Source: Neobacillus nitrireducens (lineage in GTDB: Bacteria > Bacillota > Bacilli > Bacillales > Cytobacillaceae). Taken from it: a stretch of DNA of 64,000 nt. This document shows positions 3,864-49,658 of this stretch, one piece after another (positions within the stretch are counted from its first letter, which is position 1; every line of letters starts with the position of its first letter). Where the stretch lies: assembly GCF_030915405.1 (NCBI RefSeq), contig NZ_CP133262.1:930001-994000 (forward strand). Reading direction: 5' to 3'. The notes beneath the pieces are model-generated. The model worked only from the letters and a program-made list of their open reading frames with translations, had not been told where the DNA came from and ran no database searches. The translations under genes were made by a program, and so were the position numbers.

Positions 3864-5063
3864 CTATAAAACCCGAACTGTAACAATACCTTCTATTTGG
3901 TTGATTTTTTCCAATACCCCCGGAATGATATCCCCATTTACTTTATTGTCAATATCAATCATCGTATAGGCGTATTCTCCGCGACTTCTATTAATCATGT
4001 CAGCGATGTTTAAATTATAGCTTGAAATCGCCAATGTGATCTGACCCACCATGTTTGGCACGTTTTTGTGGAAAGCCGCCACACGGCGCTTGCCTGTAAA
4101 TGGAATAGAAGCATTTGGAAAATTCACTGAGTTTTTGATATTTCCTGTTTCCAAAAACTCTTTCACCTGGCGAGCGGCCATAATGGCACAATTCTCTTCT
4201 GATTCTTGAGTAGAGGCACCAAGATGCGGAATGGGAATAGCATTTTTCATTTTCAATACCTTTTCATTTGGGAAGTCTGTTATATACTTACCAACTTGCC
4301 CGCTTACAAGAGCTGCAGCCATATCCGTTTCATTGACAAGCTCTCCCCGAGAGAAATTTAAAATATGAACACCTGGCTTCAAAATGCTGAAGGTTGCTTC
4401 GTTAAACATACCTCTAGTATCATCCGTTAACGGAACGTGAACCGTAATATAATCAGAATTAGCAAACAGCTGTTCAATCGTCATCGCACGCTGAACATTG
4501 CGAGACAAGTTCCAAGCGGTATCAACAGAAATAAATGGGTCAAATCCAATAACATCCATGTCTAAATCAAGTGCATCATTAGCTACTAGCGCACCGATTG
4601 CACCCAATCCAATGACACCCAGTGTTTTCCCTTTAATTTCTTTTCCAACGAATTGTTTCTTACCTGCTTCAACCAGCTTCGGAATTTGGTCACCTTCGCC
4701 ATCTAACGCCTTTGTCCATGTAATGCCGTCAAACAGGTTTCGGGATGAAGCCATCAAGCAAGTTAGCACCATTTCTTTTACAGCATTAGCGTTTGCCCCA
4801 GGGGTATTGAAAACCACAATCCCTTGCTCTGTGCATTTTTCAACAGGAATATTATTAACTCCCGCTCCCGCACGGGCAATCGCCTTTACGTTGTTCCCCA
4901 ATTCTAAGGAATGCATGTTAAAACTGCGGACAACAATCGCATCAGGATTTTCACTGTCATTATCAATGATGAAGTGATCCTTATTGAATACCTTTAACCC
5001 GCTCTCTGCAATATTGTTTAACGTTTTAATTGTTTTCATTTTGTCTACTGTTGTTGTGCTCAT
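3864..5063 (-). CDS. serA: D-3-phosphoglycerate dehydrogenase (short form with ACT domain)
   Basis: It oxidises 3-phosphoglycerate to 3-phosphohydroxypyruvate, the entry step of serine and hence glycine and one-carbon synthesis. The NAD-binding loop GVIGLGAIGALVAN lies near residue 145. The catalytic Arg is in FSRGELVNE and the catalytic His in IPHLGAST. A C-terminal ACT-like region (about residues 325-399, IDIDNKVNG near the end) suggests regulation by a small molecule. At 399 residues it is the short form, not the ~525-residue B. subtilis type. The leader carries a ZTP riboswitch, tying it to folate/one-carbon status. Confidence 0.88.
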   Translation of the reverse strand: MSTTTVDKMKTIKTLNNIAESGLKVFNKDHFIIDNDSENPDAIVVRSFNMHSLELGNNVKAIARAGAGVNNIPVEKCTEQGIVVFNTPGANANAVKEMVLTCLMASSRNLFDGITWTKALDGEGDQIPKLVEAGKKQFVGKEIKGKTLGVIGLGAIGALVANDALDLDMDVIGFDPFISVDTAWNLSRNVQRAMTIEQLFANSDYITVHVPLTDDTRGMFNEATFSILKPGVHILNFSRGELVNETDMAAALVSGQVGKYITDFPNEKVLKMKNAIPIPHLGASTQESEENCAIMAARQVKEFLETGNIKNSVNFPNASIPFTGKRRVAAFHKNVPNMVGQITLAISSYNLNIADMINRSRGEYAYTMIDIDNKVNGDIIPGVLEKINQIEGIVTVRVL

Positions 5064-5225: not shown

Positions 5226-5253
5226 AGAGGTAAGGAACAATTCCCTTACCTCT
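5226..5253 (-). promoter_or_regulatory. Strong hairpin directly after the ZTP aptamer
   Basis: A 12-bp stem (AGAGGTAAGGAA region against TTCCTTACCTCT) follows the aptamer at once and overlaps its last conserved bases. It has only a weak T-run, so it may act as switch hairpin rather than as terminator. Confidence 0.55.
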
Positions 5254-5320
5254 GCCCAGGCGAACGGCTTCGACTTAATGTGCTCCCTCACGGTACTCCG
5301 TGTTTCGCCAGTTACACATC
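5253..5320 (-). promoter_or_regulatory. ZTP (pfl) riboswitch aptamer
   Basis: On the minus strand: P1 arms ATGTG and CACAT, then AACTGGCGAAA, P2 arms CACGG and CCGTG with loop AGTA, then GAGGGAGCAC, a linker, and GCCGTTCGCCTGGGCA. These are the conserved blocks and order of the ZTP riboswitch, including the CCUGGGC pseudoknot loop. The class senses ZTP/ZMP, which accumulate when 10-formyl-tetrahydrofolate runs short, and usually switches genes on. Here it lies upstream of serA. Confidence 0.9.
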
Positions 5321-5337
5321 GTCTTTTCATTTATCTT

Positions 5338-8325: not shown

Positions 8326-10206
8326 TTATACCATTATTTTACAAATATCATTAGTAAATTCAACTGGGTCTTGGATTGGTAATCCTTCAATTAATAGTGC
8401 TTGATTGTATAATAACTTGGTGTATAGATCCAATTTACCTTTGTCATTTTCAAAAGCCTCTTTTAGTGTTTGGAAGACCTCGTGATTATTATTGATTTCT
8501 AAAACCTTATCCGCTTTAACATTTTGGTTATTCGGCATCATCGCAAGAATTTTTTCCATTTCAATCGATATTTCGCCTTCAGTTGCCAAGCAAACCGGGT
8601 GGGATTTTAATCGTTTTGAAATCCTAACATCCTTTACTTTATCCGCTAAAATATTTTTCATAAAGTCAAAGAGTTCTTTGTTTTCCTTCTCATTTGCTTC
8701 GGATTCGTCTTTAGTGTCTTCTCCTTCGATTCCTAAATCTCCGCTTGAGATCGATTTGAATTCTTTTTCATTGTAGTTTATTAACATTTTAATCGCGAAC
8801 TCATCGATATCCTCGGTGAAATAAAGAATTTCGTAGCCTTTTTCAGAGACGAATTCTGCCTGAGGTAACTTTTCAATACGATCAATCGATTCACCAGAAG
8901 CGTAATAAATATATTTTTGATCTTCAGGCATTCTAGACACATATTCATCTAGGGTAACCAGTTTCTTCTCTTTAGATGAATAGAACATGATTAGATCTTG
9001 TAATAATTCTTTATTTGCCCCGAAGTCATTATATACTCCGTACTTTAACTGACGACCAAACGATTGATAAAATTCTTCATACTTTTCTCGTTCTTTCCTT
9101 TGAAGGCTCAGTAATTCGCTTTTGATGTTTTTGTTAATATTTTTCGCAATTAGCTTCAATTGACGATCATGCTGAAGCATTTCTCTTGAAATGTTAAGCG
9201 ATAAATCTTCAGAATCGACCATCCCTTTCACGAAACTGAAATGGTCCGGAAGTAGGTCTGCACATTTTTCCATAATCAGAACCCCATTGGAATAGAGTTC
9301 TAAGCCCTTTTCAAATTCTTTGGAATAGAAGTCAAACGGTGTTTTTTCAGGAATATAAAGAATCGCATTATAGCGAATCGAACCTTCGACACTGATATGG
9401 ATATGTTTGATTGGCTTATCAAAACCGTAGCGTTTTTCGCTATAGAAGTTCTCATAATCAGCATCAGTCAGTTCGCTCTTATTTTTTTTCCAAATTGGAA
9501 CCATGCTATTGATGATCTGTTCTTCTTGATAATCCTCGTATTCGGACTCACTGCCTTCTTTCAGTCTATTGCTAGTGACATCCATTTTGATTGGATAACG
9601 AATGAAATCCGAGTATTTCTTAATAATCGACCTCAAACGATATTCTTGTAAATATTCATCATAATTTTCATCTTCGGTATTCTCTTTAATTTTTAAAATA
9701 ACTTCTGTGCCAACTGAATCTTTTTCTACTGACTCAATCGTATACCCTTCAGCACCTGTCGATTCCCATTTAAAGGCCTCATCACTGCCTAATGGTTTAC
9801 TAATTACAGTTACGACGTCAGCTACCATGAATGCAGCATAAAAACCTACCCCGAACTGACCGATAATGTCATAGCCATCTTTAATTTCGTTTTCCTTTTT
9901 AAATGCTAGGGAACCACTTTTGGCAATCGTCCCGAGGTTATTTTCCAATTCTTCTTTCGTCATTCCGATTCCGGTATCAAGAATCCTTAATGATCTGTTT
10001 GCTTGGTCTGGGATCAATTTAATGAAATAGTTATCTTTGTTGAAACTTAAAGCATCGTCCGTTAACGCTTTGTAATAAATTTTATCAATCGCATCGCTGG
10101 CATTCGAAAGTAACTCCCTTAAAAATACCTCTTTGTGTGTATAAATGGAGTTAATCATCATTTCTAGCAATCGTTTAGATTCTGCTTTAAACTGTTTCTT
10201 CGACAT
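8326..10206 (-). CDS. htpG: Molecular chaperone HtpG (Hsp90)
   Basis: The 626-residue bacterial Hsp90. The N-terminal ATPase (about residues 1-215) shows [25 protein letters not shown] and [15 protein letters not shown], the Bergerat-fold motifs that bind ATP. The middle domain carries the catalytic Arg in [11 protein letters not shown], and the C-terminal third is the dimerisation domain. It is monocistronic, with its own promoter and terminator. A perfect CIRCE operator overlaps the start of transcription, implying HrcA repression; in B. subtilis htpG is not in the HrcA regulon. Confidence 0.97.
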
Positions 10207-10276
10207 GAAAAATCCCCTTTCTATCTTTATTATGTAAAAGCTGATTTAGACTATCTAAAAAGTAAATCAGCATTTC

Positions 10277-10303
10277 TTAGCACTCTAACCACAAGAGTGC
10301 TAA
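10277..10303. promoter_or_regulatory. CIRCE element (HrcA operator) upstream of htpG
   Basis: TTAGCACTC, nine bases, then GAGTGCTAA: an exact match to the CIRCE consensus, with both 9-bp arms intact. It lies 70-97 bases before the htpG start codon and just downstream of a sigmaA-like promoter, where HrcA binding would block transcription. Confidence 0.95.
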
Positions 10304-10315
10304 TCCATATATTTA

Positions 10316-10343
10316 AATATCATATTCTTAGTCATCCTGTCAA
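10316..10343 (-). promoter_or_regulatory. SigmaA promoter of htpG
   Basis: The minus strand has TTGACA (10343-10338), a 16-bp spacer and GATATT (10321-10316). The CIRCE element begins 12 bases further on. Confidence 0.65.
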
Positions 10344-10495: not shown

Positions 10496-10681
10496 ATGGA
10501 TAATCGAATTTTCTTATTTCTTGCCACGATATTATCTGGTTTTGCACTTATTAGAGTTCCTTTAGCTGATTCATTTCTTGATAGCATTTCCCCCGTCACA
10601 GATATTATTGGCATACTAACTATCCTCATCTTCTCACTCGTGTTAATTTATAAAGGCGTAAAAAGCTTGTTCACTAAGTAA
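10496..10681 (+). CDS. Small membrane protein of unknown function (61 aa)
   Basis: Two hydrophobic segments (roughly residues 5-21 and 33-54) joined by a loop with acidic residues, and a basic end KGVKSLFTK. The start codon follows GGAGGGTG at good spacing. A terminator lies 10 bases after the stop, so it is transcribed alone. I do not recognise a family. The clean ribosome-binding site, start, stop and terminator make it a probable real gene. Confidence 0.65.
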   Translation: MDNRIFLFLATILSGFALIRVPLADSFLDSISPVTDIIGILTILIFSLVLIYKGVKSLFTK

Positions 10682-10687
10682 ATATAA

Positions 10688-10722
10688 TGAAGAAAAGCAC
10701 TCTTTTAGAGTGCTTTTCTTCA
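10688..10722. terminator. Bidirectional terminator
   Basis: The 12-bp arms AGAAAAGCACTC and GAGTGCTTTTCT lie between two convergent genes, with T-runs on both strands. It serves the small membrane protein gene and the GtrA operon. Confidence 0.88.
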
Positions 10723-11130
10723 TTAGGACCCCTTTTTTGAAAACACAAACAGCTTTTGCCCAAAATAGTTTAACAACGTGTATAAACAGGTACTTATCAG
10801 GACGGAGATATCGGTTTTAACTACTAGGCTGAAGAACTCATTATTCTTTAGAATCCATTCAACAAAACTTCTTCCCATTTCATAAGAAATGAAATAGCAG
10901 CCTAAGATAACAACAATAAAGCGGAAACCACTCTTTGAAACTGAATTTTTACTTTTAAATGTAAAATTTCTATTTAAAATGAAACTGACACAGGCCCCTA
11001 TCGAATTGCCTAAGAAGGTAGCTACCCAATAGGATTGTCCAAGGGCATGTATAAGGAGATACATGATCGATAACCCAACGCCAGTATTCACAACTCCTAC
11101 CATTATAAAGCGAACGAATGAATATTTCAT
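10723..11130 (-). CDS. GtrA-family membrane protein
   Basis: A 135-residue protein with four membrane segments. FIMVGVVNTGVGLSIMYLLI and FILNRNFTFKS are the standard GtrA marks. GtrA proteins are thought to flip undecaprenyl-phosphate-linked sugars across the membrane, working with a GT2 glycosyltransferase. The gene follows such a glycosyltransferase by nine bases in the same operon, which supports the role. Confidence 0.88.
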   Translation of the reverse strand: MKYSFVRFIMVGVVNTGVGLSIMYLLIHALGQSYWVATFLGNSIGACVSFILNRNFTFKSKNSVSKSGFRFIVVILGCYFISYEMGRSFVEWILKNNEFFSLVVKTDISVLISTCLYTLLNYFGQKLFVFSKKGS

Positions 11131-35252: not shown

Positions 35253-35308
35253 TTCTTTATATTGAATCGAGTAGAGGGAAAATAATTAATTATTTTCGCC
35301 CCTCTCAC

Positions 35309-35342
35309 ACCACCGTACGTACGGTTCCGTATACGGCGGTTC
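35309..35342 (-). ncRNA. Group IIC intron domain V
   Basis: A 34-base hairpin with both arms GC-rich and the ACGTACG bulge region, four bases after the stop codon of the intron protein. It is the catalytic core of the ribozyme. Confidence 0.85.
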
Positions 35343-35345
35343 AAT

Positions 35346-36620
35346 TTATATTACAGTGTGTACTTTTAGATAATGTTCTAAAGCGGAGGGAAGTCCCCTC
35401 TGCTTTAGTCTTTTGTTCGAAATTGCTCTTTGAACGACTTTCGATAATCCGATGAATCGGTAACCTCTTCGACAGAAAGTTAATCCTTTCGCCTCTTCCT
35501 CAGGAATCCCTAATTGAACAAGCGATTTGATTTGTTTCTTCGATACCTTCCATTGCTTCCAGATGATAACTCTAATTCTGGAGCGAAGCTTCTTATCTAT
35601 CTCAGTCAACGCTTTTTTCATATTTGAGATTCTAAAGTAATTGACCCACCCAAGTATGACTTGTTTCAGTTTTAAAATTCGGAAGTCTAGCGGAACACTC
35701 CAGTTTCGCTTTGTTAATTTTCGAAGCTTCCTTTGGAATTTCTGTATTGACATGGGATGGGGTTTTACTTGATACCTCTTGTTTTTTGTATCGTAATAAT
35801 ATCCAAAGCCTAAGAATTTTAACTCTTTTGGGCGAGAGATTTTGCTCTTCTCCACATTGACTATTAATCCTAGTTTTTCTTCTATAAATCTCACGATTGA
35901 TTTCATCACTCTGTTTGCTGCTGTCTCACTCTTTACAAAGATAAGAGCGTCGTCAGCGTATCTCACGAATCGTAGTCCTCTTTTCTCTAGTTCCTTATCG
36001 AGTTCGTTTAACATAATGTTACTCAATAACGGACTAAGGTTTCCTCCTTGCGGAGTCCCGACTGGTGTTTCTTCATATTTCCCTTTCACCATGACTCCAC
36101 TGACTAAGTATTTTCTGATTAACGAGATGACATTACCATCATCTATTGTGTTGGCAATAATTCGCATGAGTTTATCGTGATGGACTGTATCGAAGAATCT
36201 TTCGAGGTCAATGTCTACCACCCAATCGTGCCCATCGTTCAGAAATTCCAAGCTTTTTATAATAGCCATCTCACAGCTTCTTTTTGGTCTAAAGCCGTAA
36301 CTGAATTCGCTGAATTGCTTTTCAAATATCGGACTGAGAACTTGATGAATGGCTTGTTGAACTACTCTATCCACTACTGTTGGTATTCCCAACTTGCGCA
36401 TCTTGCCATTTTCTTTTGGGATTTCCACTCTTAAGGCAGCTTGTGGTTGGTATTTTCTTGTTCTGATGCGCTGACGTAGCTCATCCTTATTCTCTCTCAG
36501 ATATTGCTTTAGTTCTTCGACTGTTACTCCATCGACCCCGCTCGCACCTTTATTTTTATAGACACGCAGGTAGGCTTCGTTCATATTATGATTACTTAGA
36601 ATCTGTTCTAAAAGTTCCAC
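35346..36620 (-). CDS. ltrA: Group IIC intron-encoded reverse transcriptase/maturase
   Basis: A 424-residue protein with reverse transcriptase blocks GASGVDGVTVEELKQYL, FSEFSYGFRPKRSCEMAI, DWVVDIDLERFFDTV, VGTPQGGNLSPLLSNI and catalytic RFVRYADDALIF, then a maturase (X) domain. It lacks the D and En (HNH endonuclease) domains of IIA/IIB proteins, as class C intron proteins do. It helps fold and splice the intron and copies it into new sites. All catalytic residues are intact, so the intron could still be mobile. Confidence 0.93.
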   Translation of the reverse strand: MELLEQILSNHNMNEAYLRVYKNKGASGVDGVTVEELKQYLRENKDELRQRIRTRKYQPQAALRVEIPKENGKMRKLGIPTVVDRVVQQAIHQVLSPIFEKQFSEFSYGFRPKRSCEMAIIKSLEFLNDGHDWVVDIDLERFFDTVHHDKLMRIIANTIDDGNVISLIRKYLVSGVMVKGKYEETPVGTPQGGNLSPLLSNIMLNELDKELEKRGLRFVRYADDALIFVKSETAANRVMKSIVRFIEEKLGLIVNVEKSKISRPKELKFLGFGYYYDTKNKRYQVKPHPMSIQKFQRKLRKLTKRNWSVPLDFRILKLKQVILGWVNYFRISNMKKALTEIDKKLRSRIRVIIWKQWKVSKKQIKSLVQLGIPEEEAKGLTFCRRGYRFIGLSKVVQRAISNKRLKQRGLPSALEHYLKVHTVI

Positions 36621-37123
36621 ACTCGTTTCTCCTTCCCTCTCACGTAGTAAGTAATAGCTCCATTTTGGTTAGCCTTTGAGATACGCTCATACTTTCACCA
36701 TTAATACATTCGGAGTCCGTCACTTACGCATTCGTGGTGTTGAAACACTATAAATTGTTCAGCCCTTCATGAACTAAATTCACTACTATGGCTTCTGCTG
36801 ACTTCTTGCGGCTAACCTTTTTCGACTGTACTTCCGTACATCCGCAAGACCTCCCAGGGTAAGACAACTATCTTTCCTCTTTTACTCGCCTGATTTACTC
36901 TATAAAGTTACGCACATCTTTTGGACTTTGACTTGTATTGGAGTCTCATCCCTTTATAAAGCCTTAGTATCAGATTTCTGTTCGTCGAGCCAAGATTTTA
37001 TTCCACGCTTCCTTCAGCCCTTACCTCACGGTAAGTACCTTGCGCTTCCTTAGTGGTTGGTCGATGTGTACCCCCACAGTGGACTTTCACCACCTAGGTA
37101 GTTGCCATGCCTGGCACACAATT

Positions 37124-49443: not shown

Positions 49444-49479
49444 AGTTAGTCAGAGAAAAAACAAAACATTCACTTGGCT

Positions 49480-49568
49480 ACTTTCCTACGCTGGTATTAC
49501 CCAGATCAGGTCCGAAGGGTTAAAAACTAATCGTTTTCTCTCAGCCTGATTACAGGGCACCCCTAGTA
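49480..49568 (-). promoter_or_regulatory. TPP riboswitch (THI element)
   Basis: On the minus strand: ACTAGGGGTGCC, then CTGAGAG, then ACCCTTCGGACCTGATCTGG followed by GTAATACCAGCGTAGGAAAGT. These are the conserved THI-box blocks. It is in front of thiM and followed by a terminator, so the nine-gene thi operon is controlled by thiamine pyrophosphate. Confidence 0.97.
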
Positions 49569-49658
49569 GATCTTGTATTTAATTAATTACATGATATTCC
49601 TATGATACTAGAATGTAAAGGAAAAAGATTCAACGAACTATCAGTTTACATAACATTA

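Follow-up and report, generated by a model that had tools for sequence, protein, structure and literature searches.

The CIRCE operator on htpG of Neobacillus nitrireducens is very probably an old class I arrangement

The htpG (Hsp90) gene of Neobacillus nitrireducens is preceded by a perfect CIRCE element, and we judge it very likely (probability roughly 0.9) that this element is a standard class I (HrcA/CIRCE) operator in an arrangement that is old and not newly gained. Nearly all relatives examined have CIRCE on htpG, and the arrangement is therefore old and ordinary. Heat-shock gene classes are usually defined on Bacillus subtilis, where HrcA does not target htpG, and the useful point is the reversal of this picture: among the Bacilli examined, it is the B. 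subtilis htpG model that forms the exception, so that an htpG gene with CIRCE is to be read as class I by default.

The window, by which we mean the whole 64-kb stretch of DNA analysed, carries htpG on its minus strand at 8326–10206, an open reading frame of 626 amino acids that matches the Pfam HSP90 family (PF00183, E 2.2e-113). The CIRCE operator, a predicted HrcA binding site with palindromic arms, lies on the same strand at 10277–10303, ends 70 nt before the htpG ATG and reads TTAGCACTCTAACCACAAGAGTGCTAA, with 0 mismatches in the arms; in this it bears out the first-pass annotation, which had described the arms as perfect and whose span of 10277–10343 took in operator and promoter together. 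This is the single match to TTAGCACTC-N9-GAGTGCTAA within the window, and its chance origin is ruled out by the 0.01 matches expected there at three or fewer mismatches and by mononucleotide-shuffled upstream regions, in which the best match had at least four mismatches in 690 of 690 trials. Directly upstream of CIRCE, a consensus scan of the minus strand finds a sigmaA-like promoter, TTGACA-N16-GATATT (10316–10343), with TTGACA at 10343–10338, a 16-nt spacer and GATATT ending at 10316. The same scan returned 15 promoter-like pairs over 3 kb, where shuffled sequence gave 9.8 (sd 3.4), and taken alone it is weak evidence for the pair; a TTGAC box, however, stands 34–45 nt ahead of CIRCE in all 56 htpG loci of the genus, and the annotated placement of CIRCE right after a sigmaA-like htpG promoter holds up. 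Transcription of htpG would start near 10309. CIRCE lies between the −10-like box and the htpG start, in the promoter or 5′ leader of the chaperone gene. The leader RNA is predicted to form two hairpins, the one of CIRCE and a further, clade-specific one (10240–10271, minus strand) between CIRCE and the ribosome-binding site, with −25.6 kcal/mol and a z score of −2.99 for both hairpins together. The stem of the second hairpin can be read by eye in the six nearest members of the genus, with some pairs wobble or lost.

Three CIRCE elements, all perfect, are present in the 5.15-Mb genome, with none at 1–3 mismatches; a control pattern, CIRCE read backwards, gave 1 match. The two other elements precede genes reading as groES-groEL (L002) and as hrcA followed by grpE (L003). 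HrcA is thus encoded in the genome (L003, PF01628), and its gene is itself preceded by CIRCE. With CIRCE at groESL, hrcA and htpG, the predicted HrcA regulon consists of groESL, the hrcA operon and htpG. The membership of htpG is well supported at the level of sequence, because the arms are perfect, the site is in the right place, hrcA is present and the site is conserved in orthologues. In known HrcA/CIRCE systems, HrcA is described as keeping its operons low and GroESL as keeping HrcA active, until unfolded protein titrates GroESL and the operons are released (PMC3828012, PMC8957991). By analogy with this family, HrcA, held active by GroESL, would bind the palindrome that directly follows the sigmaA promoter, keeping htpG low; heat or misfolded protein would occupy GroESL, HrcA would be released, and htpG would be induced along with groESL and the hrcA operon.

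CIRCE was counted as present upstream of htpG at two or fewer arm mismatches. Within the genus, 56 of 60 genomes have htpG, and all 56, the window genome included, carry the element (53 perfect, 3 with one mismatch). The family draw of 61 genomes yielded 50 with htpG and CIRCE in 48 of the 49 others, the remaining one having 4 mismatches; three of the family genomes (G024, G041, G054) are also in the genus draw. From 150 genomes of the order, 92 had an htpG match, and CIRCE is found in 86 of 89 upstream regions read from other families. This count leaves out G188, which has a distant match only, and G189, dropped because its htpG match is split over two frames; in G189 a perfect CIRCE lies 57 nt before the split gene. 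The class draw of 121 genomes gave 47 with a match, 43 upstream regions read and CIRCE in 37 of these, with G355 and G391 left out (distant matches only), G170 counted with its genus and G364 read from a fragment. As G099 and G141 occur in both the order and class draws, the count for new class genomes is 35 of 41. Among named relatives, Clostridium included, CIRCE occurs at 76 of 80 htpG loci (58 perfect); these loci are the best 80 of 117 relatives by protein similarity, overlap in part with the draw genomes and are the source from which Clostridia were sampled.

Across 134 family and order sites with three or fewer mismatches, the nine columns of the variable spacer hold only 0.07–0.56 bit, and the arms are therefore what is kept; the lowest arm column stands at 120/134, a value partly forced by the selection of sites on their arms. 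On an HtpG tree of 141 rows, CIRCE is present in 23/23 on the mostly clostridial side and in 112/118 on the other, where the six rows without it are scattered (one of them, L106, has 4 mismatches). This distribution suggests that CIRCE on htpG is probably ancestral to at least the Bacilli, and perhaps to Bacilli and Clostridia together, and by parsimony that it was lost in the B. subtilis-like genus lineage and in a few other branches. The trees are midpoint rooted, so the choice between gain and loss rests on parsimony and distribution.

The largest group of htpG genes lacking the site is found in a B. subtilis-like genus, g68, of which 31 genomes were drawn and 23 have HtpG; CIRCE precedes htpG in 0 of the 23, the best string having 5 mismatches. 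A locus of Bacillus changyiensis (L037) and a g68 locus (L353) share an identical 27-base best string at an identical distance, from which it follows that g68 includes named Bacillus species; we infer that B. subtilis is among them. Two members of the genus, G170 and G197, which are in both the order and g68 draws, each keep two CIRCE elements (two or fewer mismatches) at loci that by eye contain hrcA and groEL, with 1 and 2 matches, respectively, to the reversed control pattern. Downstream of the promoter, 13 of the 23 g68 loci have the element GATGCTG(A/T)(A/T)AAG(A/G)NTTTAC, one of them with an exact GAAAAGG. A shorter form is present in 14 of the 23 and, of the 181 loci from the family, order and class draws, in L183 and L202 alone, both of which come from G170 and G197. 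In B. subtilis, htpG is reportedly under positive control through a GAAAAGG element near its promoter, and the g68 element fits that control element. The B. subtilis gene and the window htpG are the same gene with a sigmaA-type promoter, but the window gene has CIRCE and no GAAAAGG in the 200 nt upstream, unlike a positively controlled htpG of the B. subtilis type. Because CIRCE is near-universal elsewhere and found at 0 of 23 loci in g68, the B. subtilis-like state looks derived.

Four of the 80 named loci (L028, L037, L043 and L051) lack CIRCE upstream of htpG at two or fewer mismatches, as do three of the 89 of the order draw (G130 and the g68 members G170 and G197). In G007, one perfect arm is kept, with 4 mismatches in total. 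The class draw contributes genus g132 of family f50, with CIRCE before htpG in 0 of 4, and two lone misses, G307 and G320. Given the 0/23 of g68, the 0/4 of g132 and the lone misses G307, G320, L028 and L051, CIRCE is not indispensable to htpG. In G130 (L237, L155), operator and gene have been parted naturally: a CIRCE with one mismatch is still there, but the gene of an IS110-family transposase stands between it and htpG. The four g132 loci (L388, L390, L394 and L395) have a common leader containing TCATTCGATATCCAA, perhaps another control element.

Published descriptions of clostridia resemble the window genome in having HrcA sites before groE, the dnaK operon and hsp90/htpG. Three exact CIRCE elements are given for C. 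cellulovorans, at groE, dnaK and hsp90 (PMC8336468), and HrcA sites were predicted at four operons of C. acetobutylicum, htpG included (PMC3828012). The fourth of these, at CAC2705, sets C. acetobutylicum apart, and nothing else essential differs in what these sources describe; under stress from butanol and butyrate, its htpG was overexpressed (PMC3828012). In B. subtilis, HrcA represses the hrcA operon and groESL, as predicted for the window genome, but the HrcA targets that PMC8957991 names do not include htpG, whereas the window htpG has CIRCE. Other Firmicutes have been given the B. subtilis-based class of htpG as well, an example being C. difficile, in which htpG was called class IV and its transcript was unchanged at 41 °C, the authors' earlier proteomics having given more HtpG (PMC3408451). 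For C. botulinum, htpG was reported as heat-induced, the operons of dnaK and groESL being the only ones for which the accessible text of that source mentions CIRCE (PMC3806222). Among the matches listed from the literature searched, which covers few subscription journals, the accessible text gave no statement for Bacillales of an ancestral htpG CIRCE with B. subtilis-like loss.

An old operator does not imply that the gene copy itself descended vertically, and we somewhat favour the possibility that this htpG arrived by horizontal transfer together with its promoter and CIRCE, the operator being old, the copy not vertical within the genus and HrcA control ready-made. The HtpG proteins of the genus do not form one clade: 29 of the 56 genus rows group with 20 others, and enforcing otherwise costs 149 in log-likelihood (AU p 0.0003, LG+G4), a p value calculated without a mixture model and weakened because the group was named after the first tree had been seen. 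Four of the 60 genus genomes have no htpG match, all four close to the window genome by HrcA (92–93%), and the neighbours of htpG differ among groups (48 loci). On a hemN-hrcA-grpE tree, the window-type HtpG requires 3 changes, forced by starred branches, although the other type requires only 1, the types are labels assigned by the analyst, and the tree stands in for the species from one 4-kb locus in the 30 of the 60 genomes whose HrcA proteins are most similar. The same pattern as from transfer is expected from an old duplication followed by differential loss, and either would explain the conflict among HtpG lineages, though each of the 56 htpG-bearing genus genomes has a single match. Every genus htpG copy examined has its own CIRCE despite conflicting lineages and varied contexts, and the operator seems to travel with the gene.

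Transfer of htpG is compatible with the class I explanation of the operator. We lean, with reservations, toward a joint account in which CIRCE-controlled Hsp90 is ancestral in Bacilli and Clostridia, the genus of B. subtilis is an exception throughout, having lost CIRCE on htpG and in part of its members carrying a conserved GAAAAG-containing element by the promoter instead, and htpG in Neobacillus is an accessory, horizontally moving gene with its own CIRCE. If this is true, CIRCE is a universal plug-in operator that would put an incoming htpG under the HrcA of the recipient at once.

That CIRCE serves instead the small open reading frame divergent from htpG (10496–10681, plus strand) is very improbable. 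The palindrome works both ways and sits in the shared intergenic region, and two weak plus-strand promoter-like pairs (9/12) occur at 10200–10233, before CIRCE; we nevertheless reject it as the main target, on the 192 nt that separate it from CIRCE, on a scan that lists no plus-strand promoter-like pair between 10303 and 10496, and on the stability of the CIRCE–htpG distance, which stays at 20–106 nt in relatives (179 nt at one named locus) while neighbouring genes change. The reading that we credit least is the one offered by the first-pass annotation, that htpG seems to have joined the HrcA regulon with groE and dnaK in a rewiring relative to B. subtilis, taken here as a recent gain: membership agrees with the sequence and the site is indeed absent from B. 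subtilis-like genomes, but the check proposed there, a survey of htpG upstream regions in related genomes, found CIRCE in nearly all of them, and the 56/56 of the genus and the family and order counts refute a recent gain, against which the class draw and the clostridial loci also speak.

The divergent frame itself encodes a membrane-like product of 61 amino acids with no Pfam match. Adjoining it is a terminator-like hairpin (10685–10725) in which GCACTC-N4-GAGTGC repeats the core of CIRCE around a short spacer, probably by chance. Elsewhere in the window, Rfam matches mark a ZMP/ZTP riboswitch at 5247–5325 (minus strand, 53.9 bits), upstream of a D-2-hydroxyacid dehydrogenase gene that is probably serA (3864–5063), and a TPP riboswitch at 49466–49574 (minus strand), ahead of three genes that by eye resemble thiM, thiD and thiE. 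Three further Rfam matches outline a group II intron at 35266–37035 on the minus strand, with an open reading frame at 35346–36620 that by eye is reverse transcriptase-like.
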